A stretch of DNA of 22,587 nt from a virus: the IMG/VR virus record IMGVR_UViG_3300017762_000086, positions 1 to 22,587 of that record. The stretch is one strand, 5' to 3'. Below the pieces are notes generated by a model. That model was not told the DNA's origin. It saw only the letters and a program-made list of their open reading frames with translations, and ran no database searches. The first letter of the stretch is position 1. The number at the start of each line of letters is the position of its first letter. Of the stretch, positions 11,428 to 19,998 are shown one piece after another. Both the position numbers and the translations under genes were made by a program.

Positions 11428-11769
11428 ATGGCCGTTCAACCTGGTACGTATAACTTCACGCTGCAACGTCGGGCTGATTTTTCGCTTGATTTGCAGTTCA
11501 AAGACGGCAGTGACGCTGCTATCAATCTGACGGGTTATACCGTGTACGCCCAGGCTTGGAACAAAGCCCGCACCAAAAAATCTGCTGATTTTTCGATTAC
11601 ATACGTTGATCGATCTGAAGGCAAGATTACGTTGAGCGTAACTGACACGCAAACGGCTGCGTTTCCCGATGAGTTGCAATATGACGTGCTGTTGGAAGAC
11701 TCTGGCGGGACGCGAGAGTATTACTTAGAGGGCATTATTTTCGTTAGCCAAGGTTACACAGAGCCATGA
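11428..11769 (+). CDS. Small beta-domain tail accessory protein, 113 aa
   Basis: A beta-rich protein with the pattern [22 protein letters not shown], then [13 protein letters not shown], then [18 protein letters not shown] and a [18 protein letters not shown] end. This resembles the immunoglobulin-like N-terminal domain of baseplate upper-type proteins (BppU) and of other fibre-connecting proteins. It lies between two fibre genes and overlaps the collagen-like fibre start by 4 nt (ATGA). A role as an adapter or base for the collagen-like fibre is inferred from that coupling. No enzyme motif is present. Confidence 0.72.
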
Positions 11770-14700
11770 GCAACAAAGTTGTCGTTACCGAGGTCACCAC
11801 TTCTTCCTTGGTTCTTTCCACTGGTACCCGAGGAGCCACAGGCGATCAGGGGCCAGCAGGCGCTACTGGCGCAACCGGGCCTCAGGGCCCTGCAGGCGCA
11901 ACTGGAGCAACGGGCGCCCAAGGCGCAGCTGGAGCTGATGGTGCGGATGGCGCAACTGGTGCCACAGGCCCACAAGGTGCAACAGGCCCTCAAGGCGCAA
12001 CAGGTGCAGCCGGTACTGATGGAGCTGATGGTGCTGATGGTGCTACTGGCGCAACAGGTCCTCAAGGCCCAGCAGGTGCTACTGGCGCTGCTGGCCAGCA
12101 AGGCCCAGCAGGTGCTACTGGCGCTGCAGGAGCTGATGGATCTGACGGATCTGATGGTGCGGATGGAGCAACAGGCGCTACCGGACCACAAGGAGCAACA
12201 GGACCAACAGGACCAACAGGAGCAACAGGTCCTCAAGGTCCTGCCGGAGCTGATGGCGCGGACGGATCTGACGGTTCTGCGACCGTAAGTGTTGGCACAA
12301 CTACTACTGGCAATGCAGGTACAAATGCGTCGGTAAGTAATACCGGGACAAGTACAGCAGCTGTTCTTAATTTCACAGTTCCGCGTGGAGCCACTGGCGC
12401 TACTGGGGCTCAAGGCCCAGCTGGTCAAGATGGAGCACAAGGCTCAGCAACAGTAAGCATCGGAACTACAACTACTGGCTCAGCCGGTAGCAGTGCGTCA
12501 GTATCAAACAGCGGCACAAGTACTGCTGCAACTTTAGATTTTACAATTCCAAGGGGTGCCACTGGTGCTACTGGAAGCACTGGCGCAACTGGGCCTCAAG
12601 GTGCTACTGGAGCTGCAGGATCTGATGGAGCTGCTGGTGCAGCTGGGGCGGATGGTAGTGACGGCGCCGCAGCAACAGTTGCTGTTGGGACGGTAAGTAC
12701 TGGATCGCCAGGTTCTAGCGCCACAGTTACAAACAGCGGCAGTAGTTCTGCTGCAACACTTGATTTCAGCATCCCAACTGGAGCAACAGGCGCAACAGGT
12801 GCAGCTGGCTCAAACGGTTCTGATGGAGCTGCGGCAACTATTTCTGTTGGCTCTGTAAGCACTGGGGCCGCTGGGTCGAACGCCACTGTTACCAATAGCG
12901 GCAGTAGTTCTGCTGCGACACTTGATTTCTCCATTCCCAGGGGAGCCACTGGCGCAACAGGCGCTACTGGTGCTCAAGGCCCAGCTGGTGCGGACGGTAC
13001 TGATGGTGCGAATGGAGGCACAGACATTGTTTTAGATACGACCCCACAACTTGGTGGCGATCTGGACATGAACTCTAAGTTCATTTCTAGCGGCATCCTT
13101 GGGCTTAAAAACACTGGCTCTCAGTCAGAAGTTCGCTTGTACTGCGAAGTTAGTAACGCTCATTACGCAGCTATTAAGGCTCCAGCCCACAGCGATTTTA
13201 GCGGCAACATTACATTTACGATGCCTGCTACTGCAGGTTCAGCAAACCAAGTTTTAAAAACAAATGGCTCAGGCGTTTTGGCTTGGGTCGACCAAACGAT
13301 TACTGATGGAGACAAGGGAGACATCACTGTTTCAAACAGCGGGGGAACGTTCACGCTGGATGACGGTGCAGTCACTTCAGCAAAGTTAGAAGACAACATA
13401 ACAATTACCGGCAACCTTACAGTTAACGGGACAACAACAACTGTCAACAGCACAACGCTAAGTGTTGATGACAAAAATATTGAACTTGGCAGTGTTTCTA
13501 CGCCAACAGATGCCACGGCTGATGGTGGTGGCATAACCCTAAAAGGTGCAACGGACCACACGATTGTCTGGTCAAACAGCACTGACAGTTGGGACTTCTC
13601 TGAGCACGTCAACATTGCTAGTGCCAAGGAGTTCCGTATTGCAGGCACGAAAGTCCTTGATGCAACGAGTCTTGGCAGCGCAATTGTCACTTCAAGCCTG
13701 ACTGCTGTTGGCACCCTTGCAACAGGTGTGTGGAACGCAACGCCGATTGCAACTGCTTACATCGCTGATGATGCGGTAACAGCCGCCAAGCTCGCTGACA
13801 CTGCAGTTACTGCCGGAACTTACAGCGCCGCTGACATCACAATCGATGCTCAGGGTCGTATCACTTCTGCCTCGTCTGGAACGATTGTCACCAGTGAGAT
13901 TGCAGACACGGCAGTCACTACTGCCAAGATCGCTGATGATGCGGTAACTGCTGCAAAACTGGCAGATACTTCAGTTGCTGCTGGTACGTATACAGCGGCA
14001 GATATTACTGTCGATGCCCAAGGTCGTGTCACAGCCGCTGCTTCTGGGGCGATCGGCACCAGTGAAATTACTGATGCTGCAGTTACAACGGCCAAGGTTG
14101 CTGATGACGCAGTTACTGCAGACAAACTTGCCAATACTTCAGTTAGCGCCGGAAGTTACACAGCTGCCGACATTACTGTTGATGCTCAAGGTCGCATAAC
14201 TTCTGCAGCATCGGGAACAATCAGCACAAGCGAAATTGCTGACGATGCTGTTACCTACGCCAAGATCCAAAATGTAACAGCCACTGACAAGATCCTGGGG
14301 CGTAGCACGTCCGGCGCTGGTGCAGTTGAAGAGATCAGTTGCACATCTGCTGGTCGCGCATTGCTTGATGATGCGGATGCCGCCGCACAACGCACCACGC
14401 TTGGCCTAGCGATTGGTACGAATGTTCAGGCATACGATGCTGACACCGCAAAGCTGGACACCGCGCAGACGTTTACCGCTGCACAGACTTTCACGCCCCA
14501 AACCGTTCATAACGGTGGCGTTGTGCTCGATGGTCCGTACGAGCAAGTTGCTGAAGCTGTTTCCGCTCTGGATATTGATTTGAATGACGGCAACTATTTC
14601 ACCAAGACTATTAGTGCCAACTCGACCTTCACGTTTAGCAATCCGCCTGCATCTGGAACGGTTGGTAGCTTTGTGCTTCAAGTAACGGTATCGGGCGCCA

Positions 14701-14858
14701 ACACCGTAATTGTATGGCCCACGTCTGTTTACTGGAACGGAGATGCTGGGCAAAACGCTCCAACACTGACAGATACTCGCACTCATCTCTTTATGTTTAC
14801 AACTTCAAACGGCGGCACGACCTACCGTGGTGCTGCTCTGACTAACTACACAAACTAG
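11766..14858 (+). CDS. Collagen-like repeat tail fibre, 1030 aa
   Basis: Residues 20-171 are almost continuous Gly-X-Y triplets ([13 protein letters not shown] type), predicted to form a collagen triple helix. Residues about 171-393 alternate shorter collagen runs with four copies of a roughly 38-residue beta module of the type [11 protein letters not shown]-x(4)[22 protein letters not shown]. Residues about 418-665 carry fibre repeats such as [26 protein letters not shown]. Residues 666-833 are three 56-residue repeats. The C-terminal domain (about 900-1030) ends [16 protein letters not shown]-like, a tip domain I recall from cyanophage fibres. It should act as a long flexible trimeric fibre for host contact. 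Any chaperone would be supplied in trans, perhaps by the gene at 16268. Confidence 0.9.
11823..13017 (+). repeat. Collagen Gly-X-Y codon repeats with interleaved beta modules
   Basis: The DNA is dominated by 9-nt units coding for [12 protein letters not shown] and GSD triplets. Four beta-module units interrupt them, beginning near 12277, 12445, 12667 and 12829. The third and fourth modules are more alike to each other than to the first two ([14 protein letters not shown] against GTSTAA). That suggests stepwise duplication. The repetitive DNA is a likely hot spot for recombination and for assembly collapse. Confidence 0.85.
13761..14264 (+). repeat. Three tandem 168-bp in-frame repeats
   Basis: Units start at 13761, 13929 and 14097, exactly 168 nt apart, and each codes 56 residues. 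Shared marks are [28 protein letters not shown] and SGTI-x-TSEIAD. Nucleotide sequence has drifted mostly at third codon positions, so the copies are old and kept by protein-level selection. The last unit runs into a variant end ([11 protein letters not shown]). Confidence 0.88.
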
Positions 14859-14864
14859 GTAGAT

Positions 14865-16232
14865 ATGGATCCGATCACTTTTACTATTGCATTAGGGGCC
14901 TCTGGCGCTGGCGGCGCAGCAGAAAGTTATTGGTTTACAATCTCATACGAAACAAACCAAGATCCCTCAAAAGTCCAAGCACTAGCTGTTGGTTCATCTG
15001 GAAATGTATTTACGACTGGAACTGCGAACGCCTCAGCTAGTAACACAAACATGACCAATCAGCATGGTTTAATGCTTAATAAATATGACAGTGACGGTAA
15101 TTATCAATTTTCAAGGAAAAACGCAGCAAGTGATTTTCTTACTGGCATAAATGAACGTCTTGCAGCTGTGGCTGTTGATAGTAACGATAATGCTTACATT
15201 GTAGCAGATAGACCTCTGCGATATGTTAGCGGAGCAGTTATTTTTGGTGGGGCGTGGATTATTAAGTATAATAGTTCTGGTACGCGTCAATGGCATAAAA
15301 TGCTAGGTAATACTAATTCACAGGATGCTCAATTTTCCGACATTGCCATAGATAGTAATGACAACATTTTTGCTTTTGGTCGTGCTAGAAACAGCGGCAG
15401 TAGTAGTTATTGTTATCCTCTTGTAAAATATAACACGTCCGGAGTAGTGCAATTTCAAAAACAAATTACTGGCAGCGGCGCGATGTCTAGCGAAAGTGCA
15501 GGTCTTGCAATAGATAGTTCTGGTAACTTTTACCTTACTGGATTTTCTGTCGATGCCGCTGTTACCGTAAAGCTAAATAGCTCTTTAGCTGTTCAATGGT
15601 CAAGATCATATGCCCTAAGTGGTACAGAGCCTATGGGCAGAGGTATTGGAACGGATTCATCTGGAAACGTATATGTAAGAGTAAATGTTTTTGACTCTGC
15701 CAATAATCGTCTGATTAAATATAACTCATCTGGCACTTTGCAATGGGAACGTGAATTTACAGACAACTCTAGCTCTGATGGAAGTCTTGCGGTTGACAGC
15801 TCAGGCAATTCTTACGTTACTGGTAAAACAACAAGTAATGGGACAAATTTTATGAACATCATTAAGTTTAATTCATCTGGAACAGTGCAATGGAAAAGAA
15901 AAATTAGTGGTTCGGAAGGCAATGGAATTTTTGGCAGGCATATTTTACATTCTGGAGATAGTCTTTACGTCACTGCTAAAATTGATGGACACGGGCTCTC
16001 AGATTTTGTTGGTAAAATACCTGACGATGGCTCGTTAACTGGAACGTACAGCACCACTGATTTTGGTAATGTTGTCTATGAATCTTCTTCAATTTCAACA
16101 TCAACACCAAGTGCTACCACGGACTCCGCACATACTGCAAGTGTTTCTAATTTGTCTCTAACTGCGGCTGATTCTGGCACAACTAGCTATAATTTTACCC
16201 GTAATGGTGAGGAGAACATAACGCTATCATGA
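14865..16232 (+). CDS. SBBP-type beta-propeller tail protein, 455 aa
   Basis: After a short N-terminal motif (MDPITFTIALGASGAGG) the protein carries at least six repeats with the core LAVDSSGNxYVTG. They are anchored near residues 40, 102, 160, 214, 261 and 309, and each is paired with a KYNSSGTxQWxR strand. This is the SBBP beta-propeller repeat, with a six- or seven-bladed propeller likely. The C-terminal 80 residues are Ser/Thr-rich. I recall proteins with this N-terminal motif in marine cyanophages near tail fibres, where the motif may dock the protein to the particle. Surface binding is inferred. Base composition is clearly more A/T-rich than the collagen gene next to it, which suggests a separate origin. 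The start lies 6 nt after the previous stop. Confidence 0.85.
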   Translation: MDPITFTIALGASGAGGAAESYWFTISYETNQDPSKVQALAVGSSGNVFTTGTANASASNTNMTNQHGLMLNKYDSDGNYQFSRKNAASDFLTGINERLAAVAVDSNDNAYIVADRPLRYVSGAVIFGGAWIIKYNSSGTRQWHKMLGNTNSQDAQFSDIAIDSNDNIFAFGRARNSGSSSYCYPLVKYNTSGVVQFQKQITGSGAMSSESAGLAIDSSGNFYLTGFSVDAAVTVKLNSSLAVQWSRSYALSGTEPMGRGIGTDSSGNVYVRVNVFDSANNRLIKYNSSGTLQWEREFTDNSSSDGSLAVDSSGNSYVTGKTTSNGTNFMNIIKFNSSGTVQWKRKISGSEGNGIFGRHILHSGDSLYVTAKIDGHGLSDFVGKIPDDGSLTGTYSTTDFGNVVYESSSISTSTPSATTDSAHTASVSNLSLTAADSGTTSYNFTRNGEENITLS

Positions 16233-17436: not shown

Positions 17437-17661
17437 ATGCAAAAAGTTTTTAATCTGCTCGGCGCTGCAGCATTTCTGATGTCTGGAGCGATGGTTGTTG
17501 GATCGGCTGTGCTTTACACCCGCATTCCATCAATCACAAAGCACTACATGGGTGAGCTTCAAACTGAGCTGACCAAGCTCGTTACTGACATGGTTCCTGG
17601 TCAGATCGATGATGTGATGCCTGAACTGCCATCAGTTACAGGACCAGCATTACCGTTCTGA
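17437..17661 (+). CDS. Single-span membrane peptide, 74 aa
   Basis: Residues about 6-27 form one hydrophobic segment (LLGAAAFLMSGAMVVGSAVLY). A basic and then acidic amphipathic region follows (ITKHYMGELQTELTKLVTDM), and the end is Pro-rich (MPELPSVTGPALPF). The segment could be an uncleaved signal anchor. The gene sits 4 nt ahead of the Pro-rich membrane protein at 17666, so the two are probably co-translated and may act together at the inner membrane. A pinholin or an inner-membrane spanin partner are possible readings, but no diagnostic motif is present. The function is not recognised. Confidence 0.6.
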   Translation: MQKVFNLLGAAAFLMSGAMVVGSAVLYTRIPSITKHYMGELQTELTKLVTDMVPGQIDDVMPELPSVTGPALPF

Positions 17662-17665
17662 TTAG

Positions 17666-18457
17666 GTGCCTGAAATACCTGAAATTGGGGTAAGACCGAT
17701 TGTCGTGCCGACAATTTTTGTAGGTCAGCCGATACCACCACCTGTTTTGCCAGCAGCACCGCCGGTAACATCTAGTCCGTTTCCTCTAATCGACATGCCG
17801 GGCTGTGTGCGTGCCCGTATCTCTTCAGGCAGTGGTGTTGAGTCCTTTGAAGAGGATCCAAACGGTGTTGTAACCCTGTGCCAAGGGGCTGTTCCTGTTT
17901 TTGAAGCAGCTGATTACAGACCAAACCAAGCGCAACAGCTAAAGCCTCCTACGCAGTTTGACCCGTTGGTCAACAAAAAAGAGCCGGAGCCAACAACTCC
18001 GACCCAAGACTCTCCCCTTAAACAACCGGTTTTGGATACCGGCAATTTAACGCTGCCACAAATTCCACCTTGTCCGCCATATGGTGCGAAAGAAATCGGA
18101 TCGCTTAATAAATTAGGAACAGAAGTTCTTACCGGTTATGAGTTAGAGGATGGCAAGTGTATAAAGATCTGGGATCCCGTGCCTGTCAGCCAAGTATTTA
18201 ACAACTATCTGCCTGACGCTGGTCCGACTGTATCAATTGCATTGACAGCTGCATTTGCCACAACTGCGGCAATCTTTGCCAAGCCAATCGCATCAATTTT
18301 GCAAAAGCTTGTTAAGCCTTTGACTAAGAAGGTAGTGAAAAAGATTAATCAGAAGCTTGGCCGTAAGGAGAAACTGGAATCCTTACAGGAGCGGCGGGTC
18401 GTTCAGCGTCACCGGAATCAAGCCATTCGCGATCTGAGACGGGCTTTGGGTAAATGA
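17666..18457 (+). CDS. Proline-rich membrane protein, 263 aa
   Basis: The frame opens with GTG directly after an in-frame TAG at 17663, so an earlier start is not possible. Residues 1-45 are Pro/Val/Ile-rich. Residues about 47-70 hold PGCVRARISSGSGVE and a second Cys follows near 74. Residues 95-125 are a Pro/Thr/Lys linker. Residues 135-170 contain a second small domain with PPCPPYGAKEIG and ELEDGKCIKIWDPV. A hydrophobic stretch (about 188-212, VSIALTAAFATTAAIFAKPIAS) precedes a strongly basic helical tail. Four cysteines could form two disulfides outside the cytoplasm. It is coupled to the 74-aa membrane peptide. The last 113 nt overlap the convergent gene at 18345. I recall similar proteins in marine cyanophages; the function is unknown. 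Confidence 0.68.
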   Translation: MPEIPEIGVRPIVVPTIFVGQPIPPPVLPAAPPVTSSPFPLIDMPGCVRARISSGSGVESFEEDPNGVVTLCQGAVPVFEAADYRPNQAQQLKPPTQFDPLVNKKEPEPTTPTQDSPLKQPVLDTGNLTLPQIPPCPPYGAKEIGSLNKLGTEVLTGYELEDGKCIKIWDPVPVSQVFNNYLPDAGPTVSIALTAAFATTAAIFAKPIASILQKLVKPLTKKVVKKINQKLGRKEKLESLQERRVVQRHRNQAIRDLRRALGK

Positions 18458-19112
18458 TCTCGTGTGTGTGTCCTTGAACAGGTGCGGGCCGAATGACAAC
18501 ATCCGCACAGATTGCGTAAAAGGGAGAGTTTTTAGAAAAGCCATAGTTGTTTTTTATGGCCTCAGAACAAGCCTTGAGCCTGCCCATTTCGTAGTTAAGC
18601 CTCTTGTCAGCTAAAGCCTGTTCATACAAGGCAACCTGTTTACTAGCTGCTTCTTTGCACAAATTAATTGATTCGCCAAGAGGAATTGACAGCGTTGCTG
18701 TTATTCCAAGGTTTTTGCTGTAGTTCTGCCTATATCCAGTTCTTTGCGGCTTATAATATAAAATTTCCCCGGGACTATCTGGTATCCCATTGGGCCCTTC
18801 AACGCCAGTAGTAGGATCAATTAGCCCATAATTGTCGCTATTGTTATACACAGGTTCTTGGTAATACTCGTTGTTGGGATCACCATATGTATGCACTCCA
18901 GAGATAAATGGAGAAATATTTAGCGTTGGAGAATCACACTGAATCGCGCCTCCAAAGCTGTGCCGCATATACTGCCCAGGGTTCACTTGCACCGCACTAT
19001 TTATCACTGAGCCTGATGAATTACTGACCGGAGATGCAGTTGCACTTATCTGACTTAGCGCAGGCGTGCTATAGAAAAAGACCGTAAAAAGAGCTGCTGC
19101 TGCTGCTTTCAT
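18345..19112 (-). CDS. Secreted Cys-containing protein, 255 aa
   Basis: Residues 1-20 are a signal peptide (hydrophobic run, then ALS before Gln21). The mature N-terminus has SPVSNSSGSVINSAVQV, then YMRHSFGGAIQCDSPTLNISPFISG. The C-terminal half has a helical part, LCKEAASKQVALYEQALADKRLNYEMGRLKACSEAIK, and then SPFYAICADVV. There are four cysteines, at 59, 152, 182 and 202. I recall relatives in marine cyanophages with the same SNSSG-x(4)-AVQV and C-x(22-30)-C layout, where the role is unknown. It is the last gene of the four-gene minus operon and overlaps the 128-aa gene by ATGA. The final 37 codons overlap the convergent 263-aa gene and look less conserved in type. Confidence 0.75.
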   Translation of the reverse strand: MKAAAAALFTVFFYSTPALSQISATASPVSNSSGSVINSAVQVNPGQYMRHSFGGAIQCDSPTLNISPFISGVHTYGDPNNEYYQEPVYNNSDNYGLIDPTTGVEGPNGIPDSPGEILYYKPQRTGYRQNYSKNLGITATLSIPLGESINLCKEAASKQVALYEQALADKRLNYEMGRLKACSEAIKNNYGFSKNSPFYAICADVVIRPAPVQGHTHEIIYPKPVSDREWLDSGDAERPAAPVRIPVSPYGQASD

Positions 19113-19495
19113 TGCGTGAATGTGCTGGTTGAGTCAATCACAGTTTCAGTAATCGTCTCTCTGTCGATACTTACCCTCTCAATAAGGCCAGGTTGATTCA
19201 GGGTCTCTGCAAACTGAAAAGCGTTGCCTGGGACTGTCTGCCGCCATTGCGTGCGGTCTGAAAGCGTAAGCACGTTACCGCTGACAGGTGGGCTAACGAT
19301 GCCGGACGCAGGCTCAACGCCAGTGCCGCTAACTGTGTATTCAAAGCCGCTTCTGTAGGACTCAGAAACAATGTTTTCTCGCACTACTGTTTTGGACTCA
19401 GTATGAGACGTAACTAGCCCCGAACCGAAATTTGGGACCACTGGGACCGCTGCTACTGGGGATGCCAACAGCAGCAAAAAAATTAGCCGATTCAC
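19109..19495 (-). CDS. Secreted beta protein, paralog of its neighbour, 128 aa
   Basis: Residues 1-16 are a signal peptide (MNRLIFLLLLASPVAA). The mature protein contains Y53-x-V-S56-G-T-G59-V60, then L76-T-L-S-D80-x-T-Q83 and G90-N-A-F93-x-F95-A. The same three blocks occur in the 168-aa protein next door, so the two are paralogs. The C-terminus is Thr/Ile-rich and strand-like (RVSIDRETITETVIDSTSTF). There are no cysteines and no enzyme motif. It overlaps both neighbours by 4 nt. The family is not one I can name. A structural or envelope-associated role is inferred only from export and composition. Confidence 0.72.
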   Translation of the reverse strand: MNRLIFLLLLASPVAAVPVVPNFGSGLVTSHTESKTVVRENIVSESYRSGFEYTVSGTGVEPASGIVSPPVSGNVLTLSDRTQWRQTVPGNAFQFAETLNQPGLIERVSIDRETITETVIDSTSTFTQ

Positions 19496-19998
19496 CGGAC
19501 AGTCAGCTCACTGATGACCTGGCCGATTGCAGCTGTGCCTGCCGCCCCTGGGCTCAAAGTAATCGCCCCGCTAGTCAATATGGTCCCGGCTAAACCTGTG
19601 TTGGTTCCCGCCGCAGTGCTTGTGATGTCTCCGAAGGCGGGCACGGCTCCAGTCGTTGGAGCTGTTGTGCTTATGGTGTCGCCAGCGGTATAAGAGGTCG
19701 CGAAAGAAAATGCGTTTCCGCTTGTAACTTGCGTTGCGTCCGATAAGGTCAATGCGTTAACGCCGTGGGTGGCCGCCCCCAATCCACCTACGGCGTTGTT
19801 GGTAGTGCTGCCGCCTGAGGTGACAGAGGTAGCAACGCCAGACCCTGAGATGGAATAACTGTTGCCAACGCGAATTGCGCGAGTTGAAGCCGCGTTCACA
19901 TCTAGCTGAATGCTGCTACTAAGCCGGTGTGTGAGGTCCGCTCTAGCAGGCAAAACAGCAGCCAATGTAATGCCCAATACCAAAAGTAAACGCCTCAT
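19492..19998 (-). CDS. Secreted beta-rich protein, paralog pair member, 168 aa
   Basis: Residues 1-20 are a signal peptide ending in ARA before Asp21. The mature part is Ser/Thr/Gly/Ala-rich. It carries Y48-S-I-S51-G-S-G54-V55, then a Gly/Asn-rich insert, then L83-T-L-S-D87-A-T-Q90 and G94-N-A-F97-S-F99-A, the same blocks as in the 128-aa protein. A low-complexity stretch follows (AFGDITSTAAGTNTG, then GAITLSPGAAG), and the end is a strand (IGQVISELTVR). There are no cysteines. The composition is like that of repeat fibres and adhesins. The start overlaps the holin-like gene stop by ATGA. Confidence 0.72.
   Translation of the reverse strand: MRRLLLVLGITLAAVLPARADLTHRLSSSIQLDVNAASTRAIRVGNSYSISGSGVATSVTSGGSTTNNAVGGLGAATHGVNALTLSDATQVTSGNAFSFATSYTAGDTISTTAPTTGAVPAFGDITSTAAGTNTGLAGTILTSGAITLSPGAAGTAAIGQVISELTVR

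Follow-up and report, generated by a model that had tools for sequence, protein, structure and literature searches.

Genes of the locus

The window, that is, the whole stretch of DNA analysed here, is 22,587 bases long and makes up an entire IMG/VR virus record; it is probably a fragment of a viral genome. It carries genes of a lambda-tailed phage (tail tube, Phage_min_tail, minor tail protein L, NlpC/P60, tip attachment protein J), followed by a collagen-like fibre. The latter is a 1030-aa collagen-repeat protein (11766-14858), after which comes a 455-aa protein with beta-propeller (SBBP) repeats (14865-16232). The genes of interest lie further on and are listed in Table 1.

Table 1. Genes of the cassette and of its surroundings in the window.
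Feature	Positions	Strand	Evidence
Cyanophage OMP-like beta barrel, 120 aa	16998..17360	+	PF24653 2.3e-34
PHROG 568 protein, 74 aa, single TM	17437..17661	+	PHROG match and hydrophobicity
PHROG 570 protein, 263 aa, Pro-rich	17666..18457	+	8.4e-55
PHROG 848 / 1755 protein, 255 aa, putatively exported	18345..19112	-	ATG start; PHROG match; hydrophobic N-terminus
PF19847 DUF6322 / PHROG 650 protein, 128 aa, putatively exported	19109..19495	-	GTG start; Pfam 4.6e-19, phrog_650 1.1e-31
PHROG 564 protein, 168 aa, putatively exported	19492..19998	-	ATG start; phrog_564 1.3e-47; paralogue of DUF6322
DUF6450 (PF20048) membrane protein, 89 aa	19995..20264	-	Pfam 6.4e-16; first gene of the row
N-terminal TM and coiled coil protein, 84 aa	20288..20542	+	topology; weak LPP match 0.003
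C39-type endolysin, 240 aa	20741..21463	+	phrog_10051 endolysin 2.6e-53; adjoins cassette

The original prediction concerned two neighbouring ORFs of 128 and 168 aa, which are present as described on the minus strand at 19109-19998. They belong to a row of genes, DUF6450-564-650-848, chained by 4-base overlaps: ATGA (19995-19998), GTGA (19492-19495) and ATGA (19109-19112). The overlap within the pair had been read as ATGA; it is GTGA, because the 128-aa gene begins with GTG, and ATGA is the sequence of the two flanking overlaps. Both proteins were also said to carry signal peptides, and each has a hydrophobic N-terminus ending at a predicted A-x-A-type site; that of the 168-aa protein is LLLVLGITLAAVLPARA, without a lipobox.

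Among the other members of the row, DUF6450 is holin-like in size and topology, with two hydrophobic segments in its relatives, and the 848 family has four conserved cysteines. On the facing arm, 570 has a hydrophobic segment near its C-terminus (residues 189-205) followed by a cationic tail. The label “plasmid stability” attached to PHROG 568 found no support here, yet it is repeated across several cyanophage records; the members inspected are short single-TM proteins with Pro-containing tails. The PF24653 protein has a signal-peptide-like N-terminus, and its gene adjoins the cassette in many siphovirus-type loci and lies near it in some myovirus-type ones. On the other side, the gene for the 84-aa protein sits between DUF6450 and the endolysin, 23 bases from the divergent DUF6450 start; it has an analogue beside 848 in podovirus S-RIP1. 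The endolysin has an N-terminal hydrophobic anchor (VWVVVVGLLSLLPFFTF), so it may be exported without a classical holin.

Homology and age of the 564-650 pair

Kinship between the two proteins had been proposed from three blocks, Y-x-[IV]-S-G-[ST]-G-V, LTLSDxTQ and GNAFxFA. All three are present, in order, at residues 53-60, 76-83 and 90-96 of the 128-aa protein and at residues 48-55, 83-90 and 94-100 of the 168-aa protein, and the gaps between blocks 1 and 2 are 15 and 27 residues respectively, as claimed. The similarity is significant by BLASTP (E = 1e-6). With the signal peptides removed, the local score was 70, compared to 32 +/- 5.6 in shuffled sequences, and none of 5000 shuffles reached 70. 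Family profiles built from 53 and 63 viral relatives were aligned by hhalign with a probability of 97% (E = 9e-11), while the neighbouring protein 848, used as a negative control, gave 0.4% and 1.9% against them. The profiles of PHROG 564 and PHROG 650 cross-match reciprocally, at a remote identity of about 22%, and the 650 profile also detects the 564 gene just upstream in seven reference genomes.

The three blocks do not contribute equally to this signal. LTLSDxTQ was found in 7 and 9 of 98 siphovirus-type relatives, which in essence make up the clade to which the window belongs, and was absent from all myovirus and podovirus members compared. Judged from these alignments, block 2 and the exact form GNAFxFA are peculiarities of the close relatives of this phage, and blocks 1 and 3 are the signal at the family level. 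The lack of conservation of block 2 in the families, together with an alignment that is short (65 aa) and of low complexity (S, T, G, V), might suggest that the resemblance is due to chance or composition. Set against the shuffling result, hhalign controls near 0-2% and the reciprocal profile matches, this explanation is very improbable. We conclude from the sequence comparisons that the two are true homologues and ancient paralogues.

The idea that they define an unrecognised family had to be abandoned. The 128-aa protein belongs to Pfam PF19847 (DUF6322) and PHROG 650: it scores 69.2 bits against DUF6322, for a curated cut-off of 30.6, and is a member over its full length. It is essentially identical in kind to this family, which has no assigned function in either library, and the name DUF6322 was not found in the open literature searched. 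The 168-aa protein remains below the cut-off (19.1 bits, E 0.002), and is thus a relative of DUF6322, not a member. It belongs to PHROG 564, fitting that family over its whole length (residues 1-167 on profile positions 1-162 of 164). No fibre or pilin family was matched in Pfam or PHROGs, and no PDB match rose above chance. In tblastn searches, the 128-aa and 168-aa proteins matched phage records numbering 406 and 403, respectively; judged by their names, all of these are cyanophages or marine/uncultured phages.

Local duplication followed by divergence had been put forward as the origin of the pair. Paralogy is retained; “local” is not, since the duplication predates the spread of the cassette. 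When a tree is built on the columns common to both, 564 and 650 part into two clades with a support of 1.0, and each clade holds both myovirus and siphovirus members, which places the duplication before that spread and rules out a recent duplication in this phage. Recent gene conversion is also unlikely, because the DNA of the blocks differs at many synonymous sites between the two genes. Co-occurrence in other phages was found as expected, 564 and 650 being present together in T4-like and siphovirus-type cassettes.

A beta fold common to 564 and 650, also suggested at the outset, is plausible on the basis of their homology. In the low-confidence AF2 model of 650 (pLDDT 69, pTM 0.28), residues 25-57 and 93-127 form two strands, each some 33 residues long; the model of 848, also of low confidence, has a beta region and a 41-residue helix. 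Fold searches with both models gave no PDB match at E <= 0.001. Three matches in BFVD were significant, one named as an uncharacterised uncultured-phage protein and two without names. Foldseek neighbours such as lysenin or anthrax PA pores, were not significant and were discounted as evidence.

A cassette in three kinds of cyanophages

Gene layouts were compared over 279 loci, and three recur. The window type reads endolysin<, DUF6450>564>650>848> facing 570<568<OMP<. In T4-like phages the order is hsp20<, 564>650>848> facing 570<605<568<DUF6450<, regA<. The T7-like layout, 9426(570-like)>DUF6450>650>848>, has only 650 of the pair, and 564 was absent from the podovirus-type cassettes examined. 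The cassette is thus common to three unrelated kinds of cyanophages, T7-like, T4-like and lambda-tailed. Even the cyanopodoviruses of the P-SCSP1 group, the smallest at about 37.8 kb, retain it.

Part of this had been seen before. Among 16 cyanomyoviruses, five hypothetical genes and a “plasmid stability” gene were described in 2010 as a conserved, possibly mobile cluster, found in all except S-PM2 (Sullivan et al. 2010, PMC3037559). In agreement with that report, 650, 848 and DUF6450 were all absent from S-PM2 in our search. By its neighbourhood and its “plasmid stability” gene, the T4-GC 218/219/234/235/237 cluster is probably the same cassette, the T4-GC numbers being unmatched singly. The window has the same arrangement of 564-650-848 facing 570 and 568. 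Its copy differs from the cluster of 2010 in being carried by a lambda-tailed phage, in adjoining an endolysin, in having DUF6450 on the 564 arm and no detected PHROG 605, and in a 650/848 overlap of 4 instead of 163 bases. Some podovirus records call a neighbour “gp165” after the T4-like gene, so the link to T4-like phages was noticed by annotators too. No description of the cassette in lambda-tailed phages was found in the literature. The families and the T4-like cassette were therefore already on record, and its occurrence in T7-like and lambda-tailed phages is what was found here.

A scan of 84,980 species genomes gave 15 matches, all with phage-type neighbours and many of them in MAGs, on short contigs. 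Of 386 cyanobacterial genomes, 385 gave no match, and the sole match lay on a 189-kb phage-like contig of a single-cell assembly. No cellular copy was found among these genomes, and a host origin of the cassette was rejected. Contigs carrying the cassette (L279-L293) have been binned into public Bacteroidetes, Gammaproteobacteria, Chloroflexota and Euryarchaeota MAGs, and include a 188-kb contig of Nonlabens xiamenensis; such cyanophage contigs in bacterial or archaeal bins are probably contamination.

In two of the three phage types the end of 650 is read in two frames. In T4-like and T7-like phages, the surroundings of the 650 stop offer 848 no ATG, GTG or TTG. A conserved in-frame ATG for 848 is found 163 bases inside 650 in 68 of 73 distinct T4-like genes and 205 bases inside it in 52 of 59 T7-like genes, which probably explains the arrangement better than a non-canonical start or a frameshift. 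The shared stretch is open in all 73 T4-like genes (11% expected from synonymous resampling of the 650 codons) and in 56 of the 59 T7-like genes (8% expected). Synonymous differences were reduced there, 0.36 versus 0.44 in T4-like and 0.29 versus 0.41 in T7-like phages. These counts come from related sequences and are not independent events, and both phage types agree in direction. On this evidence, a stretch of 163 to 205 bases codes for both 650 and 848, in different frames, and this double coding is conserved among cyanophages of the T4-like and T7-like types. Syn9 provides an example of the overlap (L112:8186-8351), and L228 and L114 are podovirus-type examples. Siphovirus-type members of DUF6322 / PHROG 650 are without the long out-of-frame overlap with 848, which is reduced to ATGA in the window type.

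At its other end, 848 is convergent with 570, and the two overlap in antisense by 113 bases in the window (18345-18457). Among loci having both genes, this overlap was present in 87 of 88 of the siphovirus type (median 113 bases) and in 53 of 67 of the myovirus type (median 101 bases). Conserved overlapping frames may explain why phage genome records often omit these genes or place their starts wrongly.

As to the timing of expression, the published late promoter of cyanomyoviruses is NATAAATA (PMC2984593). In T4-like loci, ATAAATA was found about 28-34 bases upstream of 564 in 29 of 63 cases, where 5% would be expected. It stands 28-30 bases before DUF6450 in 25 of 49 loci, or in 28 of 49 when any place within 150 bases is counted, for an expectation of 6%. 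The cassette of T7-like phages is flanked by tail fibre and terminase and falls among the class III genes (region as in PMC9860041). The presence of the motif before both T4-like arms and the class III position in T7-like phages point to late expression of the cassette in both types.

A possible role at lysis

The context is of greater interest than the pair itself: a conserved, apparently late envelope cassette, dual-coded in two phage types and present in most of the spanin-less cyanophages tested. Three of its proteins (564, 650 and 848) bear predicted export signals and three others (DUF6450, 570 and 568) have membrane segments, which suggests that it would act on the host envelope at the end of infection. 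In the record of P-SSP7, genes 042-044 are annotated as 1 TM, 2 TM and SignalP. The trio 564, 650 and 848 would be exported by Sec to the periplasm or the outer membrane, DUF6450 and 570 would be located in the inner membrane, and together these proteins may help to breach the outer membrane when the cell lyses, standing in for spanins where a phage has none; 564 and 650 might be combined in one assembly or form a specialised assembly each. Lysis genes typically move as modules between unrelated phages that share hosts, and in T7 the interval between tail fibre and terminase carries the holin, small terminase and Rz/Rz1 genes. A set of genes that is late, exported or membrane-bound, and passed among unrelated phages of the same hosts is suggestive of lysis. 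Its place beside the endolysin in the window and its retention in the smallest cyanopodoviruses count in favour of this reading.

A 2018 survey of spanins listed as lacking them 20 Prochlorococcus and Synechococcus phages, plus P-SSP7, PSS2 and Pf-WMP4; it proposed that the outer-membrane step may be unnecessary in these hosts, or that spanins might be replaced by an outer-membrane protein or by one with a C-terminal TM (PMC6139136). 570 and the exported trio would fit the latter idea. Of these 23 phages, 17 carry 650, 848 and DUF6450 together (16 of the 20 Prochlorococcus and Synechococcus phages, and P-SSP7), and in the remaining six (S-PM2, P60, S-CBS4, PSS2, Pf-WMP4 and Syn5) none of the three was found. 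This all-or-none pattern indicates that the three genes travel together; alone it does not show a role in lysis, because most of these phages are related T4-like viruses.

Several observations count against lysis. The six spanin-less phages just named, S-PM2, P60 and Syn5 among them, manage without the cassette; in T4-like phages it lies between hsp20 and regA, away from any recognised lysis gene; 570 lacks a signal peptide, which leaves its orientation a guess; no lipobox was seen in the cassette proteins examined; and no significant PDB fold was matched, both AF2 models being weak. We estimate at about 0.38 the probability that a late exported cassette helps to disrupt the outer membrane at lysis in place of spanins. 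The more specific proposal is rather doubtful, namely that DUF6450-(564)-650-848-570 would be its own kind of spanin-independent outer-membrane disruption system, exchanged among T7-, T4- and lambda-like phages of marine picocyanobacteria, the 650/848 overlap being dual-coded in two of these three phage types. If true, it would account for progeny release in most of the marine cyanophages that are listed as spanin-less.

Export could also serve other ends. The proteins might coat or modify the outer membrane, as surface remodelling or superinfection exclusion that keeps other phages or the progeny off debris and infected cells, which would suit the number of exported proteins, the nearby OMP-like barrel (PF24653) and a phage-only distribution limited to cyanophages. 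The late promoters and late gene position fit this poorly, exclusion normally acting early. The exclusion factors described so far are mostly lone small lipoproteins or membrane proteins; a cassette kept across virion types is not their usual form, and we consider the explanation unlikely. Late expression, as inferred above, the beta-rich predictions and the position beside tail fibres in podoviruses and the siphovirus would suit proteins of the virion, with 564, 650 and 848 reaching the particle, for decoration or adsorption, either through the periplasm or as the cell lyses. Proteins assembled in the cytoplasm would not be expected to bear Sec signal peptides, however; S-SM1 encodes the cluster, yet its virion proteome paper calls the cluster hypothetical proteins; and no PDB chain matches, though the virion of cyanopodovirus P-SCSP1u is solved. 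A place in the particle is accordingly improbable.

We give no better odds to a secreted fibre, matrix or pore, in which 564 and 650 would polymerise via their long strands, either extracellularly or within the outer membrane, in an amyloid-like form for instance, 848 being a secretion factor; such a structure could hold lysates together or serve nutrient release. The long strands modelled for 650, and the oligomeric rings and pores among its non-significant Foldseek neighbours, are what brings it to mind. The pTM of that model is 0.28, it has no PDB match at the threshold used, and Pfam shows no similarity to curli or other amyloid families. Compared to these alternatives, disruption of the outer membrane at lysis is the reading we prefer. 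Cyanophage release is a major route of carbon release in the ocean. If the cassette does this job, the last step of that release becomes testable with a handful of genes.

Comparison with the two-component spanins (lambda Rz/Rz1, T7 18.5/18.7) brings out both differences and likenesses. No sequence similarity to known spanins was found in Pfam or PHROGs. A lipobox ([LVI][ASTVI][GAS]C near the N-terminus) was seen in none of 17 cassette-associated proteins examined, so no cassette protein is a classical o-spanin; instead of a lipoprotein, 650 and 848 have predicted SPase I-type signals. An i-spanin is a type II membrane protein, linked to the o-spanin, that has an N-terminal TM and a periplasmic domain. 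One partner candidate is similar in topology only, with a TM and a periplasm-type segment; the 84-aa protein of the window has an N-terminal TM and a coiled coil, and 570 has a C-terminal TM instead. Like the spanins, the cassette would encode late envelope proteins, from overlapping genes, and in cyanopodoviruses it occupies the same genomic slot as T7 18.5/18.7.
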